Part shown: positions 11,830 through 43,930 of the stretch, piece after piece
Layout: the number at the start of each line of letters is the position of its first letter
Numbering within the stretch: position 1 is the first letter of the stretch
Assembly: GCA_019695095.1 (NCBI GenBank)
Contig: JAIBAQ010000027.1
Location: 1 to 45,281, forward strand
Direction of reading: 5' to 3'
DNA length: 45,281 nt
Origin: Candidatus Hydrogenedentota bacterium
GTDB lineage: Bacteria; Hydrogenedentota; Hydrogenedentia; Hydrogenedentales; SLHB01
Translations under genes and position numbers: made by a program
Notes under the pieces: model-generated
What the model was told of the DNA's origin: nothing
The model's database searches: none
Seen by the model: only the letters and a program-made list of their open reading frames with translations

Positions 11830-14034
11830 ATGAAAGTCAAGCCAGAATCACCCATGAGTGCCCTCGCCCTGTGGCTCGCCATGCTCGTCGGATGGGGCCT
11901 GGCCGTCCCGACGCTCGCTGCCGACGATCCGCCGTGGTTCAGCCGCGCATTGGTTGGCTTGGAGGTCGGCCCAACCGGTGCGCAGTTCGCAGGCGGCGAG
12001 CATGCGCCGGATTATGCCCGCAACTTCAATGGCGCGGAAATCGTTCGTCACAGCGTGGCGGCGCACGCCGATTACCTTGTGCTGTGGGTTAGGGACAGCG
12101 ATTTCACGTTTCATAGTTCCGGACTGGTTACAAAGCCGGTTGGGCTCGGCGAACGCGATGTGTTGCGCGAGGCGGTTGACGAGGCCCGCAAACATCAGTT
12201 GCCCATTATCGCCTACTGTCAGCTTCAGTATCCCGCCCACGAACTGCGTCAGCATCCCGAATGGAAAATGCGTCAGGCGGATGGCAAACCCATTGACCAT
12301 CTTGTCTGTTTCAACTCGCCCTACGCGAATGTCGTCAAGGACCTGTTGGCCGAAATCATGAGCTACGGCATCGCCGGCTTCCACCTCGATATGGTGGATC
12401 AGGGTTTCGGTCCGCCGCACGGTTGCTGGTGTGAGTATTGCCAGAAGCGTTTTCAGGCCGACTACGGGCGTCCTATGCCTAAGGAGATAAACTGGGGTGA
12501 TGACGACTGGGATCGGATGCTGCAGTTCCGATATGCGACGAGCGATCGGTTTGAGAAGATGCTGACCGAACACATCCGCCGCCTCAACCCGCGCGTGACG
12601 GTCGACTTCAATTACCACGGCAACCCGCCCTTTTCGTGGGAAGTGGGCCAGACTCCCGTGGTGCATGCAGGCAATGGCGATTTCGTGACTGGCGAAGCGG
12701 GACTCTGGGCCTTCGGCGCTCTGTCGGCCAGCTTCAACGCCGAATGGTATCGCGCGGCCACTCCCGGCAGGCCGTTCCAAGTCGCCGTGCAGCGCGGCGT
12801 GCGCATGTATCACGACCAAACCACCCGCCCGCTAAATGACATGCGCTGGGAGTTGTTCACGCTGCTTGCGCATGGCGCGTTCGTCACGATGATTGACAAG
12901 ACGGCCTACGACGGCTCGCTCGACCCGGTGGCCTATGACCGTATCGGTGCGCTACTCGGCGAAGCGCAGTCTAAACGGAACGAATTCGGTTACGCGCCCC
13001 TCCGTGAGGTCGGCATTTACTTCAGTGCACGGTCCCGTGACTGGATCGGACGTGACAAACCCGCGACGTGGTTCCAGAGCGTCCAAGGCGCGCACAAGGC
13101 GTGCGTATACGAACATCTCGGATTCGGTTTTCTGTTCGATCAGAATCTGACCCTCGAAGGCTTGAAGCAATTCCCGGTTGTATGTCTGCCAAACGCCGGA
13201 ATCCTCACGGAACCCGAAGTAAACCTGTTCAGGCGCTATGTGCAGGAGGGGGGCAATCTAATCGTCACGGGCCAGAGCGGACAGTTCGATCGCATGGGCA
13301 GGCCACTGGCAGCCTCGACGCTGGAGGAGTTGATCGGGGCGAAGGTAGAAGGTCGGCTCGAAACCTCGGACAACTGGATGCGGTTCGCGAACGGGACTGA
13401 GGCGCCGCCGGAGCTGACCGCCGGACTTCCTCCTGACTGGCCCTTTCTGGTCTGTGGCCCGGCCACTCTGTACGAGCCAACCACCGCGACCTCTGTTGGC
13501 GATTTGCTCGATTCCCATCGCGTTTCACTCGCGAAGCCCGAGGGCTACAACGCTGACTGGCCGCTCAGCGCGCGAAAGGTTGTTGGCCCTGCCGTTCTCG
13601 TGAATTCCGTCGGCAAGGGTGTGGTACTCACCTTTGCGGGCTCACCCGATTTTGCGACTGCCGGAGAACATCATATCGTCGAGACCAGAAAGTTGTGGGC
13701 AAATGCCGTGCGGTTCCTGAATCCCGCTCCACGCGTCCGGATCGAGGCTCCAGCCAACGTGGAGGCGGTTGTGACGGATGATCTGGAGACGCGGACGCTG
13801 CGCATCCATCTCATTGCCTACAACGCGACGCCTCAAACGACGCCGGTCAAGGAACGGCCCTACGTTCTGCCCGGCCTTATCGAGGATACGCCCATGTTCC
13901 GGGCCGGCATCGAACTTCGCGATGGTTTGAAGAGGGCGAGGGCTCTGAATCGAACGTCACAGATCAAACAGCGTGGCAACCGAGTGGAACTCATCGTCTC
14001 AGATATCCACGAAGTCATCAATTGCAGGTACTAG
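11830..14034 (+). CDS. secreted GHL6-type (alpha-amylase/alpha-fucosidase-like) protein with trimerisation-like domain
   Basis: A 734-residue protein with a signal peptide (SALALWLAMLVGWGLAVP). Residues of about 50-350 look like the hypothetical glycosyl hydrolase 6 (GHL6) barrel: WVRDSDFTFHSSGL, IIAYCQLQYPAHEL, GFHLDMVDQGFG, then CWCEYCQKRFQADYG, a Cys-x2-Cys element common in this family. Next comes an alpha/beta domain like the beta-galactosidase trimerisation domain (VVCLPNAGILTEPEVNLFRR, GGNLIVTGQSG) and a C-terminal beta domain. The substrate is unknown; the context suggests exported glycan processing. ATG 11830 is used; ATG 11854 would give an equally good leader. The 141 bp before it hold a weak hairpin (TCCCTC-CAGAA-GGGGGA). 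Confidence 0.8.
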   Translation: MKVKPESPMSALALWLAMLVGWGLAVPTLAADDPPWFSRALVGLEVGPTGAQFAGGEHAPDYARNFNGAEIVRHSVAAHADYLVLWVRDSDFTFHSSGLVTKPVGLGERDVLREAVDEARKHQLPIIAYCQLQYPAHELRQHPEWKMRQADGKPIDHLVCFNSPYANVVKDLLAEIMSYGIAGFHLDMVDQGFGPPHGCWCEYCQKRFQADYGRPMPKEINWGDDDWDRMLQFRYATSDRFEKMLTEHIRRLNPRVTVDFNYHGNPPFSWEVGQTPVVHAGNGDFVTGEAGLWAFGALSASFNAEWYRAATPGRPFQVAVQRGVRMYHDQTTRPLNDMRWELFTLLAHGAFVTMIDKTAYDGSLDPVAYDRIGALLGEAQSKRNEFGYAPLREVGIYFSARSRDWIGRDKPATWFQSVQGAHKACVYEHLGFGFLFDQNLTLEGLKQFPVVCLPNAGILTEPEVNLFRRYVQEGGNLIVTGQSGQFDRMGRPLAASTLEELIGAKVEGRLETSDNWMRFANGTEAPPELTAGLPPDWPFLVCGPATLYEPTTATSVGDLLDSHRVSLAKPEGYNADWPLSARKVVGPAVLVNSVGKGVVLTFAGSPDFATAGEHHIVETRKLWANAVRFLNPAPRVRIEAPANVEAVVTDDLETRTLRIHLIAYNATPQTTPVKERPYVLPGLIEDTPMFRAGIELRDGLKRARALNRTSQIKQRGNRVELIVSDIHEVINCRY

Positions 14035-34739: not shown

Positions 34740-36089
34740 CTACTCTGCATATTCCTTAAGTTTATTTCGAAGTGTACGTACGCTGATCCCCAGTATCTTT
34801 GCCGCGTGCGTGCGGTTCTGACCACACTGCTCCAGAGTTTTGAAGATGAGCTGTCGCTCCATGTCCGCGACCGTCGCACCCACCGTCAATGCACTGCGCG
34901 TATCATTTGCGCCGAACCTCGCGTGGTTCAAGCTGAAATGCTCCGGCTTGAGCAAGGGCTCCGTCGACAACACCACCGCTCGCTCAATCGTGTTCTGCAA
35001 CTCGCGCACATTCCCCGGCCAATCGTATTCCATGAAGAGCGTCCGAGCTTCATCAGAATATCCCGTGATACGACGCGCGTTCTCTTGTGCAAATCTCTTG
35101 AGGAAGAAATCCATGAGCGCCGGTATATCGTCCTTTCGCTCGCGCAACGGCGGCAAGACGATTGGAATGACGTTTAGACGGTAGAACAAGTCTTCCCGAA
35201 GCTGTCCTTTATCGACGGCCTCTTCCAGGTTGCGATTTGAAGTGCAGATAATCCGGGTGTCGACCTGAATCGGCACGGTTCCACCCACGCGCTCGAATTC
35301 ACGTTCCTGCAGGGCGCGCAGAAGTTTCGGCTGCAACTCGATGCTTATCTCCGTAATCTCGTCGAGCAACAACGTACCCGTATCCGCCAGTTGGAACCGG
35401 CCGATCTTGCGCTCGTGTGCGCCGGTGAAGGCTCCCTTCTCGTGGCCAAACAACTCGCTCTCCAGCAAACCGGCCGACAGTGCGGCGCAGTTTACCTTGA
35501 TGAACGGCTTCTCGCGCCGAATACCCGAATGGTGAATCGCGCGCGCGACCAGTTCTTTCCCTGTGCCGCTTTCGCCGCGAATGAGAATCGTCGCGCGGCT
35601 GTCCGCCACCTTCTTAATTTGTTCGTACACGGCACGCATGGCCGGGCTTTCGCCCACCATGGCGGCAAAGTCGTAGTGCTGGTTTAATTCCGAACGCAGA
35701 TACTTGTTCTCTTGAGCCATGCGCTCGCGTTCAATGGCACGGATGACCGCCATTTCGAGTTCGTCGGGGGTAAACGGCTTTAGAATGTAGTCGAACGCAC
35801 CCGCTTTCAATGCCGCCACGGCGGTTTCCACGGTGGCATAGGCCGTCATCATGATGACAGGCGTTACCGGGCTCTCGTCGCGGATGGTCTTGAGTACTTC
35901 CAGTCCATCCACTGGCGCCATCTTGAGGTCGGTTAGGATGACGTCAAAACCGTGCTTGCGAAACGCTTCTATTCCGTCTTTGCCATTCGATACCGAACGA
36001 ACGGAATGTCCTGCGCGCTGAAGTGCTTCTTGAACATACTCGCGCATCAGCGTTTCGTCGTCGATGACGAGTATCTGTGCTTTTGCCAT
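34740..36089 (-). CDS. sigma-54-dependent response regulator (NtrC family)
   Basis: A 449-residue protein with the three NtrC-type parts. The receiver domain (1-120) has acidic pocket Asp10/Asp11, phospho-acceptor Asp54 (ILTDLKMAP) and Lys104. The AAA+ domain has Walker A GESGTGKE at 172-179 and the sigma-54 contact loop GAFTGA at 219-224. The C-terminal Fis-type helix-turn-helix ends NRTHAAKILGISVRTLRNKL. The C-terminal wording (VADMERQLIFKTLEQCGQNR and RTLRNKLKEYAE) resembles flagellar regulators of the FleR/FlrC/FlbD group, though other NtrC-type proteins share it. ATG 36089 is chosen because the receiver domain begins there; the open frame reaches 36395 without domain content. It lies 68 bp after its cognate kinase gene. 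Confidence 0.92.
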   Translation of the reverse strand: MAKAQILVIDDETLMREYVQEALQRAGHSVRSVSNGKDGIEAFRKHGFDVILTDLKMAPVDGLEVLKTIRDESPVTPVIMMTAYATVETAVAALKAGAFDYILKPFTPDELEMAVIRAIERERMAQENKYLRSELNQHYDFAAMVGESPAMRAVYEQIKKVADSRATILIRGESGTGKELVARAIHHSGIRREKPFIKVNCAALSAGLLESELFGHEKGAFTGAHERKIGRFQLADTGTLLLDEITEISIELQPKLLRALQEREFERVGGTVPIQVDTRIICTSNRNLEEAVDKGQLREDLFYRLNVIPIVLPPLRERKDDIPALMDFFLKRFAQENARRITGYSDEARTLFMEYDWPGNVRELQNTIERAVVLSTEPLLKPEHFSLNHARFGANDTRSALTVGATVADMERQLIFKTLEQCGQNRTHAAKILGISVRTLRNKLKEYAE

Positions 36090-36157
36090 CTGTACAACTA
36101 ATCCTTCCTGAAAGCGTCCGGGAATCTGTAAAAGGCTCTCATGCTCAGTTGGCGTTT

Positions 36158-37306
36158 CTACTCCGTACTTGGCAAAGCGATGTAGAACGTCGATCCATTG
36201 CCAGGTTCGCTTTCGACGCGAATGGCGCCTCCATGACTCTCTACAATCTTCGAAGCTATCGCAAGGCCAAGTCCGGTTCCTTTTTCCTTCGTCGTAAAGA
36301 ACGGCGAAAAGACCTTTTCCAGTTGGTCGGCCGACATGCCGCATCCCGTGTCGGAAACGGCTAACCGTACAAGCCCAGAGTCCTTTTCCGCCCATACGCG
36401 GATTTCGCCACGGGATTCGATGCTTTGAGCGGCATTGAGCAGGATATTCATTAGGGTTTGCCGTAAGCGATGTGCATCGGCCATCACTCTCAGGTCCGGA
36501 CTTACCTCGTTTCTGACCGTGATCATCGACGAGTCAATGGTCAAGTACGACAGGGAAGCCTCTACGGCCTCCTTGCACGATACGGTCTGCAACTGAAGCT
36601 GAATGGGGCGAGTGTATTCAAGCAACTCGTTGACCACTCGCTCCAACTCCTTCGCGCCGACCTGAATCCGGTCCACGAGCCGCGCGCGCGGATCGTCCTC
36701 TTCGATGTCCCGCGCCAGCAAAGCGGCAAATCCCCGAATGCCTCCCAGCGGGTTGCGGATTTCGTGCGCAACCGTTGCCGCCATCTCGCCCAGCGCGGCC
36801 AGCCGGTCCTTTTGCCGCACGCGCGTACGCAGCGCTTCGATTTCGGTGAGATCCTGAAATACCTTTACGCTGCCGATTCGCTTGCCGTCACGATCCGACA
36901 GCGGAGAATCGCATTCACTGACCAACACCGGCTCACCGCTTTTCGTACGCCATTCCATGGCATTTCGCCCCGGCGGGGCAGGAAATTCACGTCCAAATAC
37001 ATCGGAAAAAGCCAATCCAATGGTTTCATCGGCGCGGTATCCAAGTACGCGTGTGGCGGCCTGATTAAACGTCGTGACAATTCCGTCCGTGTTCACCGCA
37101 ATCACGCCATCGGACATCCCTTCAAGAATCGAATGAAGGTAATCGCTGGTAAATGCCAGTTCGCGATTCTTGACCGCCAGTTCACGATCCAATTCCTGCA
37201 TCCGCGCTTCGAGCAGACGATACGATTCTTCCATCGACTGCGTCGTACGCGTGAAGAGCTCGAAGGCCTCCGCCAGCGCCTTTATGTCCATTTCGGCATT
37301 GGGCAT
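36158..37306 (-). CDS. PAS-domain sensor histidine kinase (NtrB/FlrB-like, soluble)
   Basis: A 382-residue kinase without membrane segments. In order: a coiled-coil (about 10-55), a PAS domain (SDYLHSILEGMSDGVIAVNT, FNQAATRVLGYRADETIG; about 54-155), a HisKA dimer helix with phospho-acceptor His181 (ATVAHEIRNPLGGIRG), and a HATPase domain with NILLNAAQSI, VSDTGCGMS and GTGLGLAIASKIVESHGG. The pattern fits cytoplasmic kinases that control sigma-54 regulators, such as NtrB or FlrB. ATG 37306 is my choice; ATG 37291 and ATG 37360 are possible and none has a strong ribosome-binding site. It lies 209 bp after the small coiled-coil gene, a gap where I see no certain feature. Confidence 0.9.
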   Translation of the reverse strand: MPNAEMDIKALAEAFELFTRTTQSMEESYRLLEARMQELDRELAVKNRELAFTSDYLHSILEGMSDGVIAVNTDGIVTTFNQAATRVLGYRADETIGLAFSDVFGREFPAPPGRNAMEWRTKSGEPVLVSECDSPLSDRDGKRIGSVKVFQDLTEIEALRTRVRQKDRLAALGEMAATVAHEIRNPLGGIRGFAALLARDIEEDDPRARLVDRIQVGAKELERVVNELLEYTRPIQLQLQTVSCKEAVEASLSYLTIDSSMITVRNEVSPDLRVMADAHRLRQTLMNILLNAAQSIESRGEIRVWAEKDSGLVRLAVSDTGCGMSADQLEKVFSPFFTTKEKGTGLGLAIASKIVESHGGAIRVESEPGNGSTFYIALPSTE

Positions 37307-37515
37307 GTTGAATTTGTGACTCGGTCCTACCCTGCATTTCCCGCGAACACACAAACGCATAGGTCACAACTCGTACGTCTGCGGACTGCGCAGGAAACCA
37401 TACAGCGGTTACCCGCCAACAAAACGTGTCTGCAAAAAGCTCTCATGGCCTTTCTCCATGTCATGCGCGCAAGCAATGAGCTTCAATCCTCTGTTGCGCC
37501 TTGGCAAATTACAGA

Positions 37516-37950
37516 CTAGATCTGTTTGTCCATAAAACCGGGCTCGTCCTTGCCTGGGCGATACCGGCCCATTGTGATTCGGTTCTGGCGCACCCGGCCC
37601 AACTCTTCGCCGACCTCCTTCAAACGTTGATCAATGCGCGCCACGGCGGCGTCGTTACGCGAAATGAGTTGTGCTGCGATCTCTTCAACTCGCGAACTGA
37701 GCGCATCAATCGCAGAGTGCTGTTCAGCGCTCGCGGTGCTGTTGCGCTGCCATTCCTCAAATAGGACTTTCATTTCACGTTGAAGATCCTGGGACAACGC
37801 AGTCCATTCCGTTTGCCGCGCAAGAATGCCCTCCAAATCGGAATCCAGATCGGCTTCATCCGAGCTTGGATACTCGTTCAGCATAAGTTCATACGCGGCA
37901 ATTTGACGTTCAAGACAATCCTTGATGCGGCTATAGATGTCGGGTCCCAC
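37516..37950 (-). CDS. small coiled-coil protein, FlgN/FliT-like export chaperone candidate
   Basis: A 144-residue protein predicted to be almost all helix: IYSRIKDCLERQIAAYELML, then long heptad-rich stretches (SSRVEEIAAQLISRN, IDQRLKEVGEELGRVRQ) and a short tail RYRPGKDEPGFMDKQI. Length, helical build and a C-terminal Tyr-Arg-Pro...Phe-Met-Asp tail remind me of FlgN/FliT flagellar chaperones, but the match is by shape only. GTG 37950 is preferred because AAGGA lies 7 bases upstream; GTG 37968 would overlap the end of the large TPR gene. It starts 10 bp after that gene, so the two are surely co-transcribed. Confidence 0.65.
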   Translation of the reverse strand: MGPDIYSRIKDCLERQIAAYELMLNEYPSSDEADLDSDLEGILARQTEWTALSQDLQREMKVLFEEWQRNSTASAEQHSAIDALSSRVEEIAAQLISRNDAAVARIDQRLKEVGEELGRVRQNRITMGRYRPGKDEPGFMDKQI

Positions 37951-37960
37951 GGTCGCGTCC

Positions 37961-40900
37961 TTAACCACCCGTTTCAGTGGCCGGCTCCTGTGTGTTCGGA
38001 GGCGCTTGTGACGTTTGGCCGGCCTGTGTCTCAGCGCGGGGAGGTGTCGGTTCAGGTAACGCATGCGCGGCGCTTGCCAACGAGATCGGCAAGCGCAGCT
38101 TGAGTGCCAATTCAATGAACTGCGCCTTCAGCTTGGCGTCTTCACTCCAGCGCGATTCCGACGCGCCCACTTCCTTGAACAGCGCCAGGCTTTGCTTGGG
38201 GTTGTCTGCTAACAACAGTGCGTTGGCTCGTTGATACTTCGCCCATGCAACGTCGTCGGCACTATCCGGCACACGCGGATCCGCGGCCAGTTCATACGTG
38301 TCTGCCGCTGCGCGGTAATCGCCCCGTTGAAAGAAATGCTCACCCAACATGAGCGCCGCTTCCTGAAGATCGGCCAATTTCGTCAAGTCTCTGCGCGACC
38401 GAGATTCGATGTTGGCGACCAAAACCCGAGCCGCTGCTTCTTTGCCCGTCTCCATGTATGCGCGAAGCAATGCCTGATCGCCTTCTTTGGTGCGTAGATC
38501 GGGATAGTTGTTCGCTGCATCCTCGAGTTTCGCCACGGCAGTATCGGTCCTTCCGTTGAAGAGTGCTTTGCCGTAGCTCACAAGAAAGTTGTAAGCGTCT
38601 TGGTCGGGCAACTTCTCCGGATCTACCCGGCTGGCCGCAGCAAAGCCGCTGCCATAGATACCCGCTTCAAAAAGGGCTTCGGCGCATTCCGCCAAAACCG
38701 ACGACTCCGTCGTAAGCTCCGCTGCTTTCTCGAAGTCCCCAGCGGCTTTCTCCGCAAGCCCCAAGTCTTTGTATATACCGCCCCGCGCAGTATAAATCGG
38801 CAACCGCTGCGGCTTCCGGGCGTACAACTGTTCCATCTCATCAAGGTTTTCCAGCGCCTTGATTGCGTCTCCATTCTTGTAAAGCAATTGAGCAAGTAAG
38901 ATCTGCCCGTCGAACGCTTCCGGCGATGTCGGATAAAGCGACATGAGTTGATCCAGGTTGAACCTTGCTTCCTCGAAATCGCCGATCTTTCCCAGGCTCT
39001 TCGCAGCCGACAGCAGTATCCCGGGGGTCCGATCTCCCGAACGGATTCCTTCAACCAAACCTTGCGCGGCGGCTTTCTCGTCACCGACCAATGATTGCAT
39101 CGCGGAGTAGTTGCGCAGAAGTTCGCCGTCCTCCGGAAAGCGGTTTTTCGCATACGTCGCCACACGAAGCGCCTCGGGCCTCCTGCCCGCCTGATCCAGT
39201 ACGCGGCTAAGCTCTACGTATGCTTTCGGCGCAAGCTCGGACTCGGGAAAGAAGTCAATCAGTTCCCGTAGCGTCTTCTCTGCTTCCGGCAGTCTGCCCG
39301 AATGCTTATACGCATTCGCGAGCGTCATGTAGATATGCTCGTGTCCTTCGGTGGACGTGGCGACTTCCAGCCGTGCTTCCAGCAGCTTGATCGCTTCGCC
39401 AAACCGTCCATCTTCCACTTCCATGTCGCCCAGTTTCCCGTAGGCCACCGAGCCTTGGTAGGTATTGGGTTCTCCCATCGCCACTTGCGTATAGAGGCGG
39501 CGCGCTTCATCTCTCTTCCCCAAGGCAAGCTGTGAATCGCCCATAAGGAGGCGCGCATCCTGCAAAAGCGGGGATCCGGGATACTTATCCTGCAATTCCT
39601 GCAATACCCCAGCGGCCTGTTCCGGACGCTTAATCGACATATACACCTTGCCCATGGCGAGGAGCGTCGCGTCTTGTCCCGATGCCGCGCTGTACTGATC
39701 GAGAATCTGCTTGTACACGTCCAACGCGGCCATCGGCAAGTTGGTGCGCTCGTAGAGTTCGGCTTTCCACCGAAGCATTTCGGGAGCGTTGGGGAAATTG
39801 GGTGACGATGCCAAGAAGGTATCGATATCTTCCTGAAGCTTGTCTACTTCCGATTCCTTCGGACTCTTAGGTAGCTCACGGTACGCAGTCTCTATCTCGC
39901 GGTATCTGGCATCCTCTGCGCTTGGAGCCGACGCATGCGTCTCGGGAGTCTCCGGAGTCTCGGCCACGGGAGTAGTGTGTTCCGGCGGAAGTTCGGCGTG
40001 CGTCTGAGACTCTTCGGGATGAGCCTCAGGAGTCACCTCCTGTGTCGGCTCTTGTGGGGTCGCCTCCGCTTCTTGTATGGGCTGCTGCGTCTCGACGTGC
40101 TGCTCTGTGGACTCGGCAACCGGCACACTGGGTTCCATCTTCGATGAGAAAAAGAAGAACGAAGCCACGGCGAGCGCTAACCCTGCGGCGATTGCCGTCC
40201 ACTCTTTGAGGCCCGGGCGCGGCCACGGCGTACGGGTGATGCGGAGGCGTGCCACAACTCCCGTTTCTTTGGGCTTCTCCTCCGAGTCTTCCGCTCTGCG
40301 AGACGGGGCTTCCGATGGCGTTGCCACCGGTGCAAAGCCCATGTCTGCCATGTCTGAATCGCTCAGATGAACTGCGCCGCTCGTCTCTACAACGCCTGCC
40401 CCTGCAGGAGGATGAGACGTCAGTTCTTCTGACGACGGAATACTAATTTCATCTAGCGCAGATACCTCTTTCTCGGAAGGCGCGGACGCTGAAACCGGCT
40501 CAGCGGGCGGCTTGGGTGCGGTCTGGCTGGCCTGAGCAAGCAATGAGTCAATGAGGTCTTGCGACAAGATGCTGTCGTCGGTGTCCTTGCTGGGAACAGC
40601 CGCTGCCAGGTTTTCCAGGCTCACGCTTTCCATGGCATTGGCCCGAATTGCACGATCCACGGGATCCACAAGGATCGCATCGTCCTCGTCTGGCTGGGTC
40701 ATCGACGTCGCGCCGATCTGAGACAGGAGGCTATCTACGTCCTCTTGAGCAAGGACAGCATCGTCTTGCGTTGGGCCGATTACGGCATCCATCGAAACGG
40801 GCGATTCCACCCCCGACGGCACGATCGGTGCATCCATATCGGAATTGTCGAGCGGAACATCCGTTGCATCGGCGTGCAGAAGGTTGTCAATTTCCTCCTG

Positions 40901-41716
40901 CGAAAGCGTACCCCCAGTCGGCATCGGTGCGGCAGCGTGGGAAGCTGCTGTTTCGGCCCGTTCGTGCGCCTTCTGGACGACTTCGGAATCACGACGCTCC
41001 AGGTTCTTCGCGGACGCGAGCATCCGATCGATCTCGTCCTGATCCAGCGTTGTGCTCAATTGCGCTTCGGGCTCTTTCGCGGGAGGAGGCGTCACGGGAG
41101 GTTCTTGCTTAGGCGGTGCCGGAGCGCTCATTGCCGCAAGCAGGCGGTCAACTTCATCCTGATCGACGATTGCATCCTGCTGGTTGTCTGCGGGTTTGGC
41201 ATCTTGCACAGGGGGAGTTACTGTCGCCAGCAAGCGATCGATTTCCCCGCGCATCAACGCGTCGATTTCATTCTGCCCTACAGGACGCGCGGGCGTAACT
41301 GCAGTGGGTTGAGGCTTTGCCGGTTGGGGTGGCGGCGGCGGGGCCGGCTCTTGTGCAGGTTTAACCGGCGTCTCCTGCGCTACGACCTTTGCGGGCATCT
41401 CCGCCGCAGCTTCCTTGGGCGGCTCATCGCGCTGAGCCAGGACATTGTCCAGCTCCGCTTGCTTCACCGGCCCCAAATTGGCCTTCTCGACTTGAACCGG
41501 CGGAGGGGGCGGTGGGGGAGTTGCCAACTGCGACTCCAACGCCTTCTTTTTTGCTTTGGCCTCGGCGCGCTGCTTAGCGACGAGCGCCATTACAGCGTCC
41601 AACTCCGATTGGTCCAGCAGCGTCTGCGAAGCTTCCGAATCAGGGTTCGGCGCAGGGGCCGATGCGTCGGTCCCTTCCTTGTCCTTACCGGGCTCGTCTA
41701 TGGCTCCAGGTGACAC
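37961..41716 (-). CDS. large TPR membrane protein with an array of FliM-like 'LSQEEIDxLL' motifs
   Basis: A 1251-residue protein. Residues 1-490 are disordered, Pro/Glu/Ala-rich and hold eight copies of a motif of type [LV]-x-Q-x-[EDL]-[ILV]-D-x-[LMV]-[LM], best seen as LSQEEIDNLL (271-280). One membrane helix follows (about 506-524, WTAIAAGLALAVASFFFF). Then comes an acidic Pro-rich linker (530-600) and a long C-terminal solenoid of TPR-like helices (for example MAALDVYKQILDQYSAASGQ, GRLPEAEKTLRELIDFFPES) to about residue 1200, ending in a Pro/Thr/Gln tail. With no signal peptide, the motif array should be cytoplasmic and the TPR part periplasmic. GTG 41716 starts the frame; its ribosome-binding site is weak, but a strong promoter lies at 41826-41854. 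Family unknown. Confidence 0.85.
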   Translation of the reverse strand: MSPGAIDEPGKDKEGTDASAPAPNPDSEASQTLLDQSELDAVMALVAKQRAEAKAKKKALESQLATPPPPPPPVQVEKANLGPVKQAELDNVLAQRDEPPKEAAAEMPAKVVAQETPVKPAQEPAPPPPPQPAKPQPTAVTPARPVGQNEIDALMRGEIDRLLATVTPPVQDAKPADNQQDAIVDQDEVDRLLAAMSAPAPPKQEPPVTPPPAKEPEAQLSTTLDQDEIDRMLASAKNLERRDSEVVQKAHERAETAASHAAAPMPTGGTLSQEEIDNLLHADATDVPLDNSDMDAPIVPSGVESPVSMDAVIGPTQDDAVLAQEDVDSLLSQIGATSMTQPDEDDAILVDPVDRAIRANAMESVSLENLAAAVPSKDTDDSILSQDLIDSLLAQASQTAPKPPAEPVSASAPSEKEVSALDEISIPSSEELTSHPPAGAGVVETSGAVHLSDSDMADMGFAPVATPSEAPSRRAEDSEEKPKETGVVARLRITRTPWPRPGLKEWTAIAAGLALAVASFFFFSSKMEPSVPVAESTEQHVETQQPIQEAEATPQEPTQEVTPEAHPEESQTHAELPPEHTTPVAETPETPETHASAPSAEDARYREIETAYRELPKSPKESEVDKLQEDIDTFLASSPNFPNAPEMLRWKAELYERTNLPMAALDVYKQILDQYSAASGQDATLLAMGKVYMSIKRPEQAAGVLQELQDKYPGSPLLQDARLLMGDSQLALGKRDEARRLYTQVAMGEPNTYQGSVAYGKLGDMEVEDGRFGEAIKLLEARLEVATSTEGHEHIYMTLANAYKHSGRLPEAEKTLRELIDFFPESELAPKAYVELSRVLDQAGRRPEALRVATYAKNRFPEDGELLRNYSAMQSLVGDEKAAAQGLVEGIRSGDRTPGILLSAAKSLGKIGDFEEARFNLDQLMSLYPTSPEAFDGQILLAQLLYKNGDAIKALENLDEMEQLYARKPQRLPIYTARGGIYKDLGLAEKAAGDFEKAAELTTESSVLAECAEALFEAGIYGSGFAAASRVDPEKLPDQDAYNFLVSYGKALFNGRTDTAVAKLEDAANNYPDLRTKEGDQALLRAYMETGKEAAARVLVANIESRSRRDLTKLADLQEAALMLGEHFFQRGDYRAAADTYELAADPRVPDSADDVAWAKYQRANALLLADNPKQSLALFKEVGASESRWSEDAKLKAQFIELALKLRLPISLASAAHALPEPTPPRAETQAGQTSQAPPNTQEPATETGG
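40538..41617 (-). repeat. eightfold array of LSQxEIDxLL-type peptide motifs (within the TPR protein gene)
   Basis: Encoded motif copies at residues 34-43 (LDQSELDAVM), 84-93 (VKQAELDNVL), 146-155 (VGQNEIDALM, overlapped by GEIDRLL at 157-163), 184-193 (VDQDEVDRLL), 224-233 (LDQDEIDRML), 271-280 (LSQEEIDNLL), 322-331 (LAQEDVDSLL) and 384-393 (LSQDLIDSLL). A ninth, degenerate form may be LSDSDMADMG at 451-460. Spacing ranges from 38 to 62 residues, with disordered linkers. The DNA of the copies is not identical, so this is conserved peptide sequence and not a recent tandem duplication. Confidence 0.9.
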
Positions 41717-41940: not shown

Positions 41941-42957
41941 ATGGGCAGTTCTGATACCGATCATAGCGCAGGGGCCTTCTCGCCCGACGGCCCCGATATC
42001 CGTAAGGTCACCGCAGGGTTCGATCCCGGCGACGTGATCGCCGATCGGTATGAGGTAATCGAAGTCCTGGGGCGTGGCGGCATGGGCATCGTCTATCTGG
42101 TCAACGACCGGGAGACACAACAGCGTCTCGCATTGAAGTCTCTGCTTCCTCACTACGTTACGCATTCGCACGCCGTGAACCGGTTTGTGCGCGAAGTGCG
42201 CGCGGCGCGTCAGCTCAACCATCCTTGCATCGTGAAGGTCTACGATGCGCGCCAGCTTGGCTCACTGATCTTCTATACCATGGAGTATGTCGACGGCATC
42301 AGCCTCTTCAAATGGATGAAGAAGCGTGGGAAGATGGGTCTCGGCTCCGTGGTGCGGGTCTTGAGTCTGTTGTGCCACGCGCTTGAGCATGCGCATCAAT
42401 TCACAATTCACCGCGACATTTCACCCGACAACGTGATGGTCCTGCAGGACGGTTCGGTGAAACTGCTCGACTTTGGATTGGCGAAGCTGCTCAATGTCGA
42501 ATCGGCCTTCACCATGATCGGCGTGAGCTTGGGCAAACAGCAGTACATGGCGCCCGAACAACGCATCAGCGCCGCGGAAGTGGACAAGCGGGCCGACATC
42601 TATTCGTTGGGCGTCATGTTCTTCGAGATGTTGGCCGGGGAGCTGCCAAAGACCAACCTGCGCATCACCGATTTCCGTTCGGATCTTCCGTTGGAGTGCA
42701 ACGCGTTCGTGAAGAAGGCGCTTGCGGAAAAGCCCGACGACCGCTTCCAGGACGCGCGCGAATTCAGACATGCCCTCGCGTACATCTATCAGGTTAGCAC
42801 CGGCGAGCCTCTTCAGAACGCGGCGACTCCCGTTCCGGTGATGGACGCTCCGCCCCTGCCGAAGCCAAGTGTGTGGGCGCGGCTCTACGAGTCTATACGC
42901 AGGCTGTTCCGACGCGGTTCAGCCGGCACAAACCACGTTTCGGACGATTCCCAGTAA
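41941..42957 (+). CDS. eukaryote-like serine/threonine protein kinase
   Basis: A 338-residue kinase with a complete catalytic core: glycine-rich loop VLGRGGMGIVY (43-52), ATP lysine Lys66 in LALKSLL, catalytic loop IHRDISPDN with Asp159, DFG at 177-179 and YMAPEQR. HRD is kept, but the usual following Lys is Ser (HRDISPDN), as in several bacterial kinases. There is no membrane helix; the C-terminus is basic and amphipathic (SVWARLYESIRRLFRRG) and may touch the membrane. ATG 41941 has AGGAGG upstream. It is divergent from the TPR-protein operon, and no phosphatase is adjacent. Targets are not known. Confidence 0.93.
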   Translation: MGSSDTDHSAGAFSPDGPDIRKVTAGFDPGDVIADRYEVIEVLGRGGMGIVYLVNDRETQQRLALKSLLPHYVTHSHAVNRFVREVRAARQLNHPCIVKVYDARQLGSLIFYTMEYVDGISLFKWMKKRGKMGLGSVVRVLSLLCHALEHAHQFTIHRDISPDNVMVLQDGSVKLLDFGLAKLLNVESAFTMIGVSLGKQQYMAPEQRISAAEVDKRADIYSLGVMFFEMLAGELPKTNLRITDFRSDLPLECNAFVKKALAEKPDDRFQDAREFRHALAYIYQVSTGEPLQNAATPVPVMDAPPLPKPSVWARLYESIRRLFRRGSAGTNHVSDDSQ

Positions 42958-42990: not shown

Positions 42991-43851
42991 TTAGGCCAAC
43001 TCGCCGTTCACGTAGGCCATCGTCGTCGTGATCGGGAAATCTCCGGGGAATTTCACGAAGGTGACATGACCATCCAGATACAACGTATTGCCGCCGCCTG
43101 GAACGTGGTTGAACTCCGCCGCATCCGTGCTCGGGCTGTCCCACATGAGCGCAATCTCGCTCTGCGCCCGGCTCGACGCGGCAGGATTGTTGATGTCGCT
43201 GATCAAGAAGCGCTCGATACCTTCCTTCAATCGGTAGGCCGTCAAGTCGCCGCGGCTGTGGCCGGCAAGATCGATGTCATCGTCAAGCATGCTGAAGTCG
43301 CCGCCGTTCACGGCAACAAACGTGTTTGCCAACGTTGTCAGAAACACAATGTCGAGTGCATTGCTCGGTTCAATATCATTGGGATTGGCGCCTGCGCTCG
43401 TTAAGACATCATTGTCTACGAGCCACGAAACATACACGTACGATATCGAATCGAACCGGCACGGCGCCCAGCCATTTGCAGGGTTTTCGCCAACGCTCCA
43501 ATAGCCTCGGTCGATTTCGCTGCGATCATTCGATCCCGAAGGACATACAAAAATGTTCGGATCCGTCACGTACTCGGGATACAGCGAGTTGCCCTGCGGG
43601 AAGAAGTGAAAACTGGGCTGATCGCACAGGTCACCGGTCAAGTGTCTGACCTGGGGGAACTTCTCTCCGCGCGACTCGGCTGCGTACATCTTGAACGCAA
43701 GACCGGCTTGCTTGAGATTGTTCTGACAACTTGCCCGGCGAGCGGCTTCCCGGGCGCGAGCCAAAGCAGGTAACAAGATGGCGGCAAGTATTCCAATAAT
43801 GGCAATGACAACCAACAATTCGATGAGGGTGAAGCCGTTTCTCTTTCTCAT
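42991..43851 (-). CDS. prepilin-type pseudopilin (DUF1559-like, H-x-DG)
   Basis: A 286-residue protein with a type IV prepilin leader: [20 protein letters not shown], peptidase cut after Gly6, conserved Glu at mature position 5 and a hydrophobic helix, then [20 protein letters not shown]. The C-terminal part has [17 protein letters not shown]. This is the H-x-DG signature of the large pseudopilin-like families of Planctomycetes and relatives, with 10 residues between His and Asp-Gly where the named motif has nine. It is probably a surface or secretion-system pseudopilin of unknown role. ATG 43851 has AAGGGAG upstream. The AT-rich stretch at 43890-43935 before it holds a TTGACA on the minus strand but no clear -10 box. 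Confidence 0.9.
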
Positions 43852-43930
43852 TGGATGAATGCTCCCTTTCGACCCAGCGGGCACGAAGAGAGCATACCAT
43901 AAATTATTGTCAAATGGTGCTAAAATTTTG

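Follow-up and report, generated by a model that had tools for sequence, protein, structure and literature searches.

A flagellum-associated membrane protein of Hydrogenedentota with an array of eight FliM-like peptides on its predicted cytosolic tail

A contig from a Candidatus Hydrogenedentota bacterium (JAIBAQ010000027.1, positions 1 to 45,281, analysed over its whole length and here called the window) encodes a membrane protein whose long N-terminal tail carries eight copies of a ten-residue peptide that resembles the site at which FliM binds phosphorylated CheY (CheY-P). The tail, predicted to be cytosolic, is followed by one membrane helix and by a superhelix of tetratricopeptide repeats (TPRs), predicted to be periplasmic. 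Members of its family co-occur with FliM and FliN across the phylum and are encoded in operons that can run on into flagellar genes, and the protein, referred to below as the array protein, is very probably a flagellar membrane protein. The interpretation we prefer, at a probability of roughly 55%, is that it serves as a scaffold at the periphery of the motor, similar in kind to PflB or FlcA, and that, beside the C-ring, its cytosolic tail gathers CheY-P or receivers resembling CheY. A prior reading of the DNA made from sequence alone had given the open reading frame (ORF), the eight copies, and the order of tail, membrane helix and TPRs, and reanalysis agreed with it on all of these. The features of the protein are as follows, with the eight peptides assigned by motif match, the helix by hydropathy and by flank charge bias in the family, and the superhelix by Pfam, AlphaFold2 and Foldseek.

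37961..41716, minus strand: array protein (peptide array, membrane helix, TPRs), 1251 residues, GTG start, stop included
41588..41617, minus strand: docking peptide 1, LDQSELDAVM, residues 34-43
41438..41467, minus strand: docking peptide 2, VKQAELDNVL, residues 84-93
41252..41281, minus strand: docking peptide 3, VGQNEIDALM, residues 146-155
41138..41167, minus strand: docking peptide 4, VDQDEVDRLL, residues 184-193
41018..41047, minus strand: docking peptide 5, LDQDEIDRML, residues 224-233
40877..40906, minus strand: docking peptide 6, LSQEEIDNLL, residues 271-280
40724..40753, minus strand: docking peptide 7, LAQEDVDSLL, residues 322-331
40598..40615, minus strand: ENLAAA element, residues 368-373, another short motif of the cytosolic tail, shared by about half of the homologues
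40538..40567, minus strand: docking peptide 8, LSQDLIDSLL, residues 384-393
40142..40204, minus strand: membrane helix, residues ~505-525, N-terminus predicted inside
38072..39934, minus strand: TPR superhelix, residues ~595-1215 (~620 residues), predicted periplasmic

The peptides have the form LxQxx[IVL]Dx[LV][LM] and lie at uneven spacings of 38-62 residues in an N-terminal region of about 500 residues that is rich in Ala, Pro, Glu, Asp and Ser, nearly lacks aromatic residues and cysteine, and is taken to be a disordered tail. Copies were counted with the pattern LxQxx[IVLM]Dx[LVIM][LM], whose matches start at residues 34, 84, 146, 184, 224, 271, 322 and 384; a degenerate copy without the glutamine, RGEIDRLL at residue 154, directly follows the third. 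When the first 504 residues were shuffled 20,000 times, 19,920 shuffles had no match, 80 had one, and none had two. The back-translated pattern matched the whole 6.77-Mb genome 21 times, against two matches for a reversed control, with seven of the 21 falling within the array ORF and one being the N-terminus of FliM. Most of the other single matches in the genome (a 479-residue ORF on contig C88, a RecA-like ORF, out-of-frame matches) look like chance and were discarded. Near the membrane-proximal end of the tail, the second element usually reads [GS]xENLAAA where it occurs.

The sole hydrophobic helix has a Lys/Arg-rich N-flank and an acidic C-flank, and the N-flank is the more basic of the two in 31 of 36 family members, so the N-terminus is predicted to be cytosolic and the TPR part should be periplasmic, a point absent from the sequence-only reading. 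Pfam finds only TPR and TPR-like families in the protein, from about residue 600 onward, and AlphaFold2, working from a two-sequence alignment, models this part as a single all-helical superhelix (solenoid) with a mean predicted local distance difference test score of 85. Neither Pfam nor NCBIfam has a family covering the whole protein, and the design as a whole is unnamed. The earlier statement that no named family has this design therefore stands for the databases, but it needs tempering for the TPR and membrane part, which probably represents a known kind of scaffold (PflA/PflB/FlcA) and is not wholly new.

Likeness to the FliM peptide, which that reading had also proposed, agrees with the FliM of the same genome and with a profile search of the PDB, at the level of sequence matching. 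The N-terminus of the genome's own FliM is MADILSQDEVDLLL, which bears LSQDEVDLLL. A profile constructed from 36 array peptides and nothing else was searched against 177,635 PDB sequences, and its best match was to residues 3-20 of FliM from solved C-ring structures, with an E-value of 0.011. The sequence LSQxEIDALL is the CheY-P site of FliM (PMC6700473), and the partners of FliM-type peptides named in PMC6700473 and PMC7534056 are CheY and CheY-like proteins. The genome encodes a CheA/CheW cluster, 13 matches to the methyl-accepting chemotaxis protein (MCP) domain, and CheY (contig C5, bases 12404-12766). This CheY is canonical, aligning over its whole length to the CheY proteins of Escherichia coli and Helicobacter pylori (E about 1e-28) and retaining, by alignment to the former, D57, W58, T87, Y106, K109 and K119, in what we take to be E. 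coli CheY numbering. For the FliN-type docking that had been suggested alongside, no support was found; FliN is not, to our knowledge, known to bind a FliM-type peptide. Pfam detects neither the FliM middle domain nor the SpoA domain (FliMN_C) in the array protein, and matches to FliMN_C occur on other contigs.

A profile of the TPR part, with family membership called at E < 1e-40, finds the family in 46 of 68 Hydrogenedentota genomes, usually as one copy. The family was not found as such in 14 genomes of other phyla, five of them from Treponema, and FlcA of spirochaetes was accordingly rejected as an ortholog; three weak matches outside the phylum (E 3e-13 to 3e-19), each covering a short part, are the expected TPR background. 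Comparison with FliM/FliN, identified by FliMN_C, in 60 relatives showed 45 genomes with both, 10 with neither, and only five mismatches (Fisher p 1e-7, kinship ignored). Four of the mismatches are genomes 66-84% complete with FliM only, and the fifth, with the TPR family only, is a genome 60% complete. Co-absence recurs in separate families, being seen in one genome of family f1 (G006), one within genus g24 (G046), and most of family f10, whose genus g35 retains both. The expectation in the sequence-only reading that homologues would occur only with flagella thus holds for every relative apart from that single incomplete genome, and array proteins are not common among relatives that lack FliM and FliN.

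Gene order points in the same direction. In most of 35 loci, the TPR gene is followed by genes for a FlgN-like protein, an NtrB-type kinase and an NtrC-type regulator, which in the window are as follows.

37516..37968, minus strand: FlgN/FliT-like coiled-coil protein, a conserved neighbor of ~150 residues, overlapping the end of the TPR gene
36158..37360, minus strand: PAS histidine kinase, NtrB/FlgS-like, a conserved neighbor
34740..36395, minus strand: sigma-54 response regulator, NtrC/FlgR/FlbD-like, a conserved neighbor

The coiled-coil family gives weak Pfam matches to FlgN in 5 of 13 members (best E 0.001) and to FliT in 4 of 13 (best E 0.004). In one genome (G052) the operon runs on, without a change of strand, into flgB, flgC, fliE, fliF, fliG, fliH, fliI and fliJ, and in two others (G014 and G008) it extends into fliE-fliF-fliG-fliH-fliI, with gene names assigned by reading the sequences by eye and by BLAST between loci. 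The genome under study has a separate flagellar cluster in which fliH-fliI-fliJ is followed by a gene for an E-ring protein of the FlbB/FlgY type (NCBIfam collar_FlbB, E 1e-10, below the model cut-off; Pfam MgtE_N, above cut-off), and it also encodes FliL and FliN. The kinase and regulator are similar to pairs of the NtrB/NtrC type, a large group to which FlgS, FlgR and FlbD belong, and the conservation of both genes as neighbors raises the alternative that the array binds other receivers, above all that of the regulator from its own operon, and reports motor assembly to flagellar gene control. We consider this very unlikely: the operon order could merely reflect flagellar regulation, and the copy number of the peptide tracks chemosensory genes (below), whereas the kinase and regulator pair is present in genomes without chemotaxis too.

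On the other side of the array gene, and divergent from it, lies a gene for a serine/threonine protein kinase (window 41941-42957, plus strand). No such gene was found near homologues apart from one weak match (L110), so this kinase is probably outside the system. Beyond it is a gene for a DUF1559 protein whose N-terminal methylation motif is like that of type IV pilins (window 42991-43884, minus strand).

The number of strict copies per protein ranges from 0 to 19 in 43 homologues plus the window protein, and in none of the 43 homologues does a copy lie beyond the membrane helix, in the part predicted to be periplasmic. Across 157 copies, the commonest residues are L/I/V/M at position 1, S/D/T at 2, D/E at 5, L/I at 6, A at 8, L at 9 and L/I at 10; Q3 and D7 are invariant because the search pattern fixes them. 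Homologues with no strict copy may bear look-alikes without the glutamine, such as PADMDEIIASL in G002. Tandem units of about 30 residues enlarge some arrays (G042, G047, G055). These units can be nearly identical to each other, and copy number jumps between genera, as would be expected if a low-complexity linker had expanded neutrally and at most one or two copies were functional. Such an origin seems most improbable, for glutamine and aspartate persist although the copies have diverged and are spaced unevenly, the eight copies in the window differ from each other, copies are never periplasmic, and similar arrays arose on unrelated flagellar proteins.

Copy number varies with the presence of chemosensory genes. 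Five flagellated relatives (G026, G034, G037, G040, G050) are missing CheA, CheW and MCPs altogether, and two more (G002, G019) have CheW only; together these seven have 0, 0, 1, 1, 2, 2 and 2 copies, a median of 1, as against a median of 4 in genomes with chemosensory genes (one-sided Mann-Whitney p 0.007 by genome and 0.027 by genus, kinship ignored). Within genus g30, the chemotaxis-less G037 has a tail of 573 residues with two strict copies plus eroded ones, for example LLSPSDLDRLI where G047 has LLSQSDLDKLI, and its relatives have 8, 11 and 19. Absence of CheA as such was dropped as a refutation, as four genomes first scored CheA-negative (G004, G005, G008, G031) have CheW and MCPs and were reclassified. 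Because the array weakens without chemosensory genes yet persists, some ligand probably remains. An alternative is that the array docks a partner other than a CheY receiver, such as a C-ring or export component, and so holds the scaffold on the rotor side or on intermediates of assembly, with the likeness to FliM reflecting a shared binding face on the partner. In keeping with this idea, relatives without chemosensory genes retain some copies as well as an intact FliM peptide, and the FlgN-like chaperone is a conserved neighbor; we nevertheless think it unlikely, given that the partners of the peptide named in PMC6700473 and PMC7534056 are CheY and CheY-like proteins and that copies erode when chemotaxis is lost.

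Similar arrays occur on other proteins. When the genomes of about 85,000 species were scanned for adjacent pairs of the peptide, at least 118 stretches matched, and the multi-copy proteins for which the sequence-only reading had advised a search do exist, many of them flagellar among the matches listed, to which the following examples also belong. In Desulfobacterales and relatives, 4-12 copies precede one membrane helix and a C-terminal FliL-type domain. Pfam calls this domain FliL in 7 of 14 members, and the top PDB matches to a model of it are all FliL (Z 11-12; Foldseek E 1e-5), including 7sgn with Z 11.9 over 98 residues at a root-mean-square deviation of 3.1. The array genes examined there follow flhA-flhF-flhG-fliA, with neighbors read by eye. 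Some FliN proteins of Deltaproteobacteria and Treponema have two copies, a Eubacterium FliY has three, and a Planctomycetota protein (L211) combines eight copies with a membrane helix and what may be TPRs.

Several further proteins with FliM-type copies have no obvious flagellar link: a DUF3999 protein with nine copies (L175:275-3169, plus strand), an immunoglobulin/cadherin-domain protein with seven (L183:1660-3924, minus strand), and a protein with two copies and an N-terminal CxxC zinc-ribbon-like segment (L219:4604-5779, plus strand). Two Treponema proteins (L231:768-3797, plus strand; L218:3487-6441, minus strand) have four 15-residue LTQxEIDxLV repeats each; the former is Lon protease by Pfam, with the repeats separating the AAA lid from the protease domain and a FliM-like peptide near its N-terminus. 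Two Lachnospiraceae proteins of 136-147 residues (L197:809-1249, minus strand; L214:5522-5929, plus strand) consist of scarcely more than four such peptides. Matches from Phycisphaerae (in the records L124-L241; VEQGDLDLVL...IDQAELDGVL) resemble repeats of the dockerin type and were discarded; these pairs that mimic the motif lie near the C-terminus of large proteins, many per genome.

The mechanism we favor would place the array protein in the inner membrane as part of the flagellar motor periphery. Its periplasmic superhelix would be built into the scaffold that surrounds the motor or lie on it, as is the case for PflA/PflB in Campylobacter and FlcA in Borrelia, and its disordered tail of ~500 residues would display eight FliM-type peptides beside the C-ring. 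Each peptide would bind one CheY-P, or one CheY-like receiver, through the face used for FliM, and many array proteins per motor would together hold a dense, multivalent pool of CheY-P close to the C-ring, raising or steadying local CheY-P and so tuning switching. The position in the motor, the binding of CheY-P and the effect on switching are what we infer here. FliL rings stators, and the similar tail on the FliL-type protein of Desulfobacterales fits the same proposed role. Were the peptides to bind CheY-P away from the switch, at the pole or elsewhere along the membrane, the array would act as a sink or buffer that lowers free CheY-P or times its release. The peptide and chemotaxis evidence would be identical, and the wide range of copy number (0-19) would suit the tuning of a buffer; but operon and co-occurrence tie the array protein to the motor itself, and FliL, FliN and FliY, the parallel carriers, are all motor parts, so we judge a sink to be rather unlikely.

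A number of observations weigh against a motor-peripheral collector of CheY-P. The five flagellated relatives missing CheA, CheW and MCPs keep one or two strict peptides, and the FliM peptide is intact in the four chemotaxis-less genomes with a readable FliM N-terminus (G019, G026, G034, G037); CheY-P made by CheA is therefore not the whole story, and the intact peptide in G026, G034 and G037 suggests a ligand other than chemosensory CheY-P. Three flagellated relatives with CheA (G001, G029, G032) have no strict copy. Multi-copy peptides also occur on the DUF3999, Lon, immunoglobulin-domain and short all-motif proteins, with no obvious flagellar link. The Campylobacter scaffold 9hmf_K ranks seventh in a Foldseek search (E 3.5e-11, template modelling (TM) score about 0.3), amid hundreds of TPR matches whose TM-scores are likewise low, many of them to unrelated proteins.

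Both the peptide and the TPR scaffold are of known kinds, while an array of several copies on a membrane protein of the motor seems to be undescribed: a full-text literature search, with subscription papers outside its reach, turned up no account of CheY-binding peptides in multiple copies, nor of any on FliL. We put forward, more tentatively than the reading of the array protein itself and as a possibility somewhat short of even, that multivalent CheY-P "antennae" are a general, unnamed part of flagellar motors that evolved separately in several phyla, so that the CheY-P sites at a motor are not set by FliM alone; the carriers would be the TPR scaffold in Hydrogenedentota, the FliL-type protein in Desulfobacterales, and FliN or FliY with extra copies in Deltaproteobacteria, Treponema and gut Firmicutes. 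Chemotaxis models assume that CheY-P sites per motor number about as many as FliM subunits. If the proposal is right, scaffold proteins that surround the motor in large number and bear 8-19 sites each would multiply its CheY-P sites, alter cooperativity and response time, and couple the state of stators or scaffold to the supply of CheY-P. The peptides are short and occur in cultured Desulfobacterales such as Desulfospira joergensenii, which makes the idea directly checkable. A coupling between stators and CheY-P binding has already been seen in E. coli, by another route (PMC8440544).

Comparison with known systems shows where each part of the design has precedents. FliM and FliY share with the array protein the consensus of the peptide, including Q, D and the hydrophobic positions, its disordered context and its flagellar setting, but in these C-ring proteins a single copy stands at the very N-terminus, in contrast to eight internal copies on a membrane-bound protein. 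FimV and HubP are large TPR-bearing membrane proteins that gather chemotaxis and flagellar factors; their TPRs lie on the side of the membrane opposite to that predicted for the array protein, in which Pfam finds no LysM or FimV domain at E 0.01. Cle proteins are receivers, other than CheA-driven CheY, that use the FliM peptide (PMC7534056). Such receivers would explain the peptides in chemotaxis-less genomes, with the difference that Cle proteins are ligands of the peptide and the array protein displays it. The FliL-type protein of Desulfobacterales is alike in its cytosolic FliM-type array, one membrane helix, periplasmic flagellar domain and flagellar operon, but it has a FliL fold in the periplasm where the Hydrogenedentota protein has TPRs; since these periplasmic domains are unrelated, the design appears to have arisen separately.

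The scaffolds PflA/PflB of Campylobacter and FlcA/FlcB of Borrelia, and MotC/MotK, resemble the array protein in their long TPR superhelix and flagellar gene context. PflB, with a cytosolic N-terminal tail, one membrane helix and periplasmic TPRs at the rim of the motor (PMC11870540), has the same order of parts that is predicted for the array protein. Species that have FlgY commonly encode a single TPR protein close to their flagellar genes (PMC11870540), and the FlbB/FlgY-type E-ring gene in the host is reminiscent of this setting. The array-protein model differs in lacking the AMIN domain of PflA and the antiparallel beta pair of PflB, no strand being present in the AlphaFold2 model built from two sequences, and no sequence orthology to periplasmic TPR scaffolds was found in the genomes tested outside the phylum. 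Removal of the cytosolic tail of PflB halves motility (PMC11870540). The corresponding tail of the array protein, about 500 residues long and crowded with docking peptides, is unlike that of PflB/FlcA-type scaffolds.

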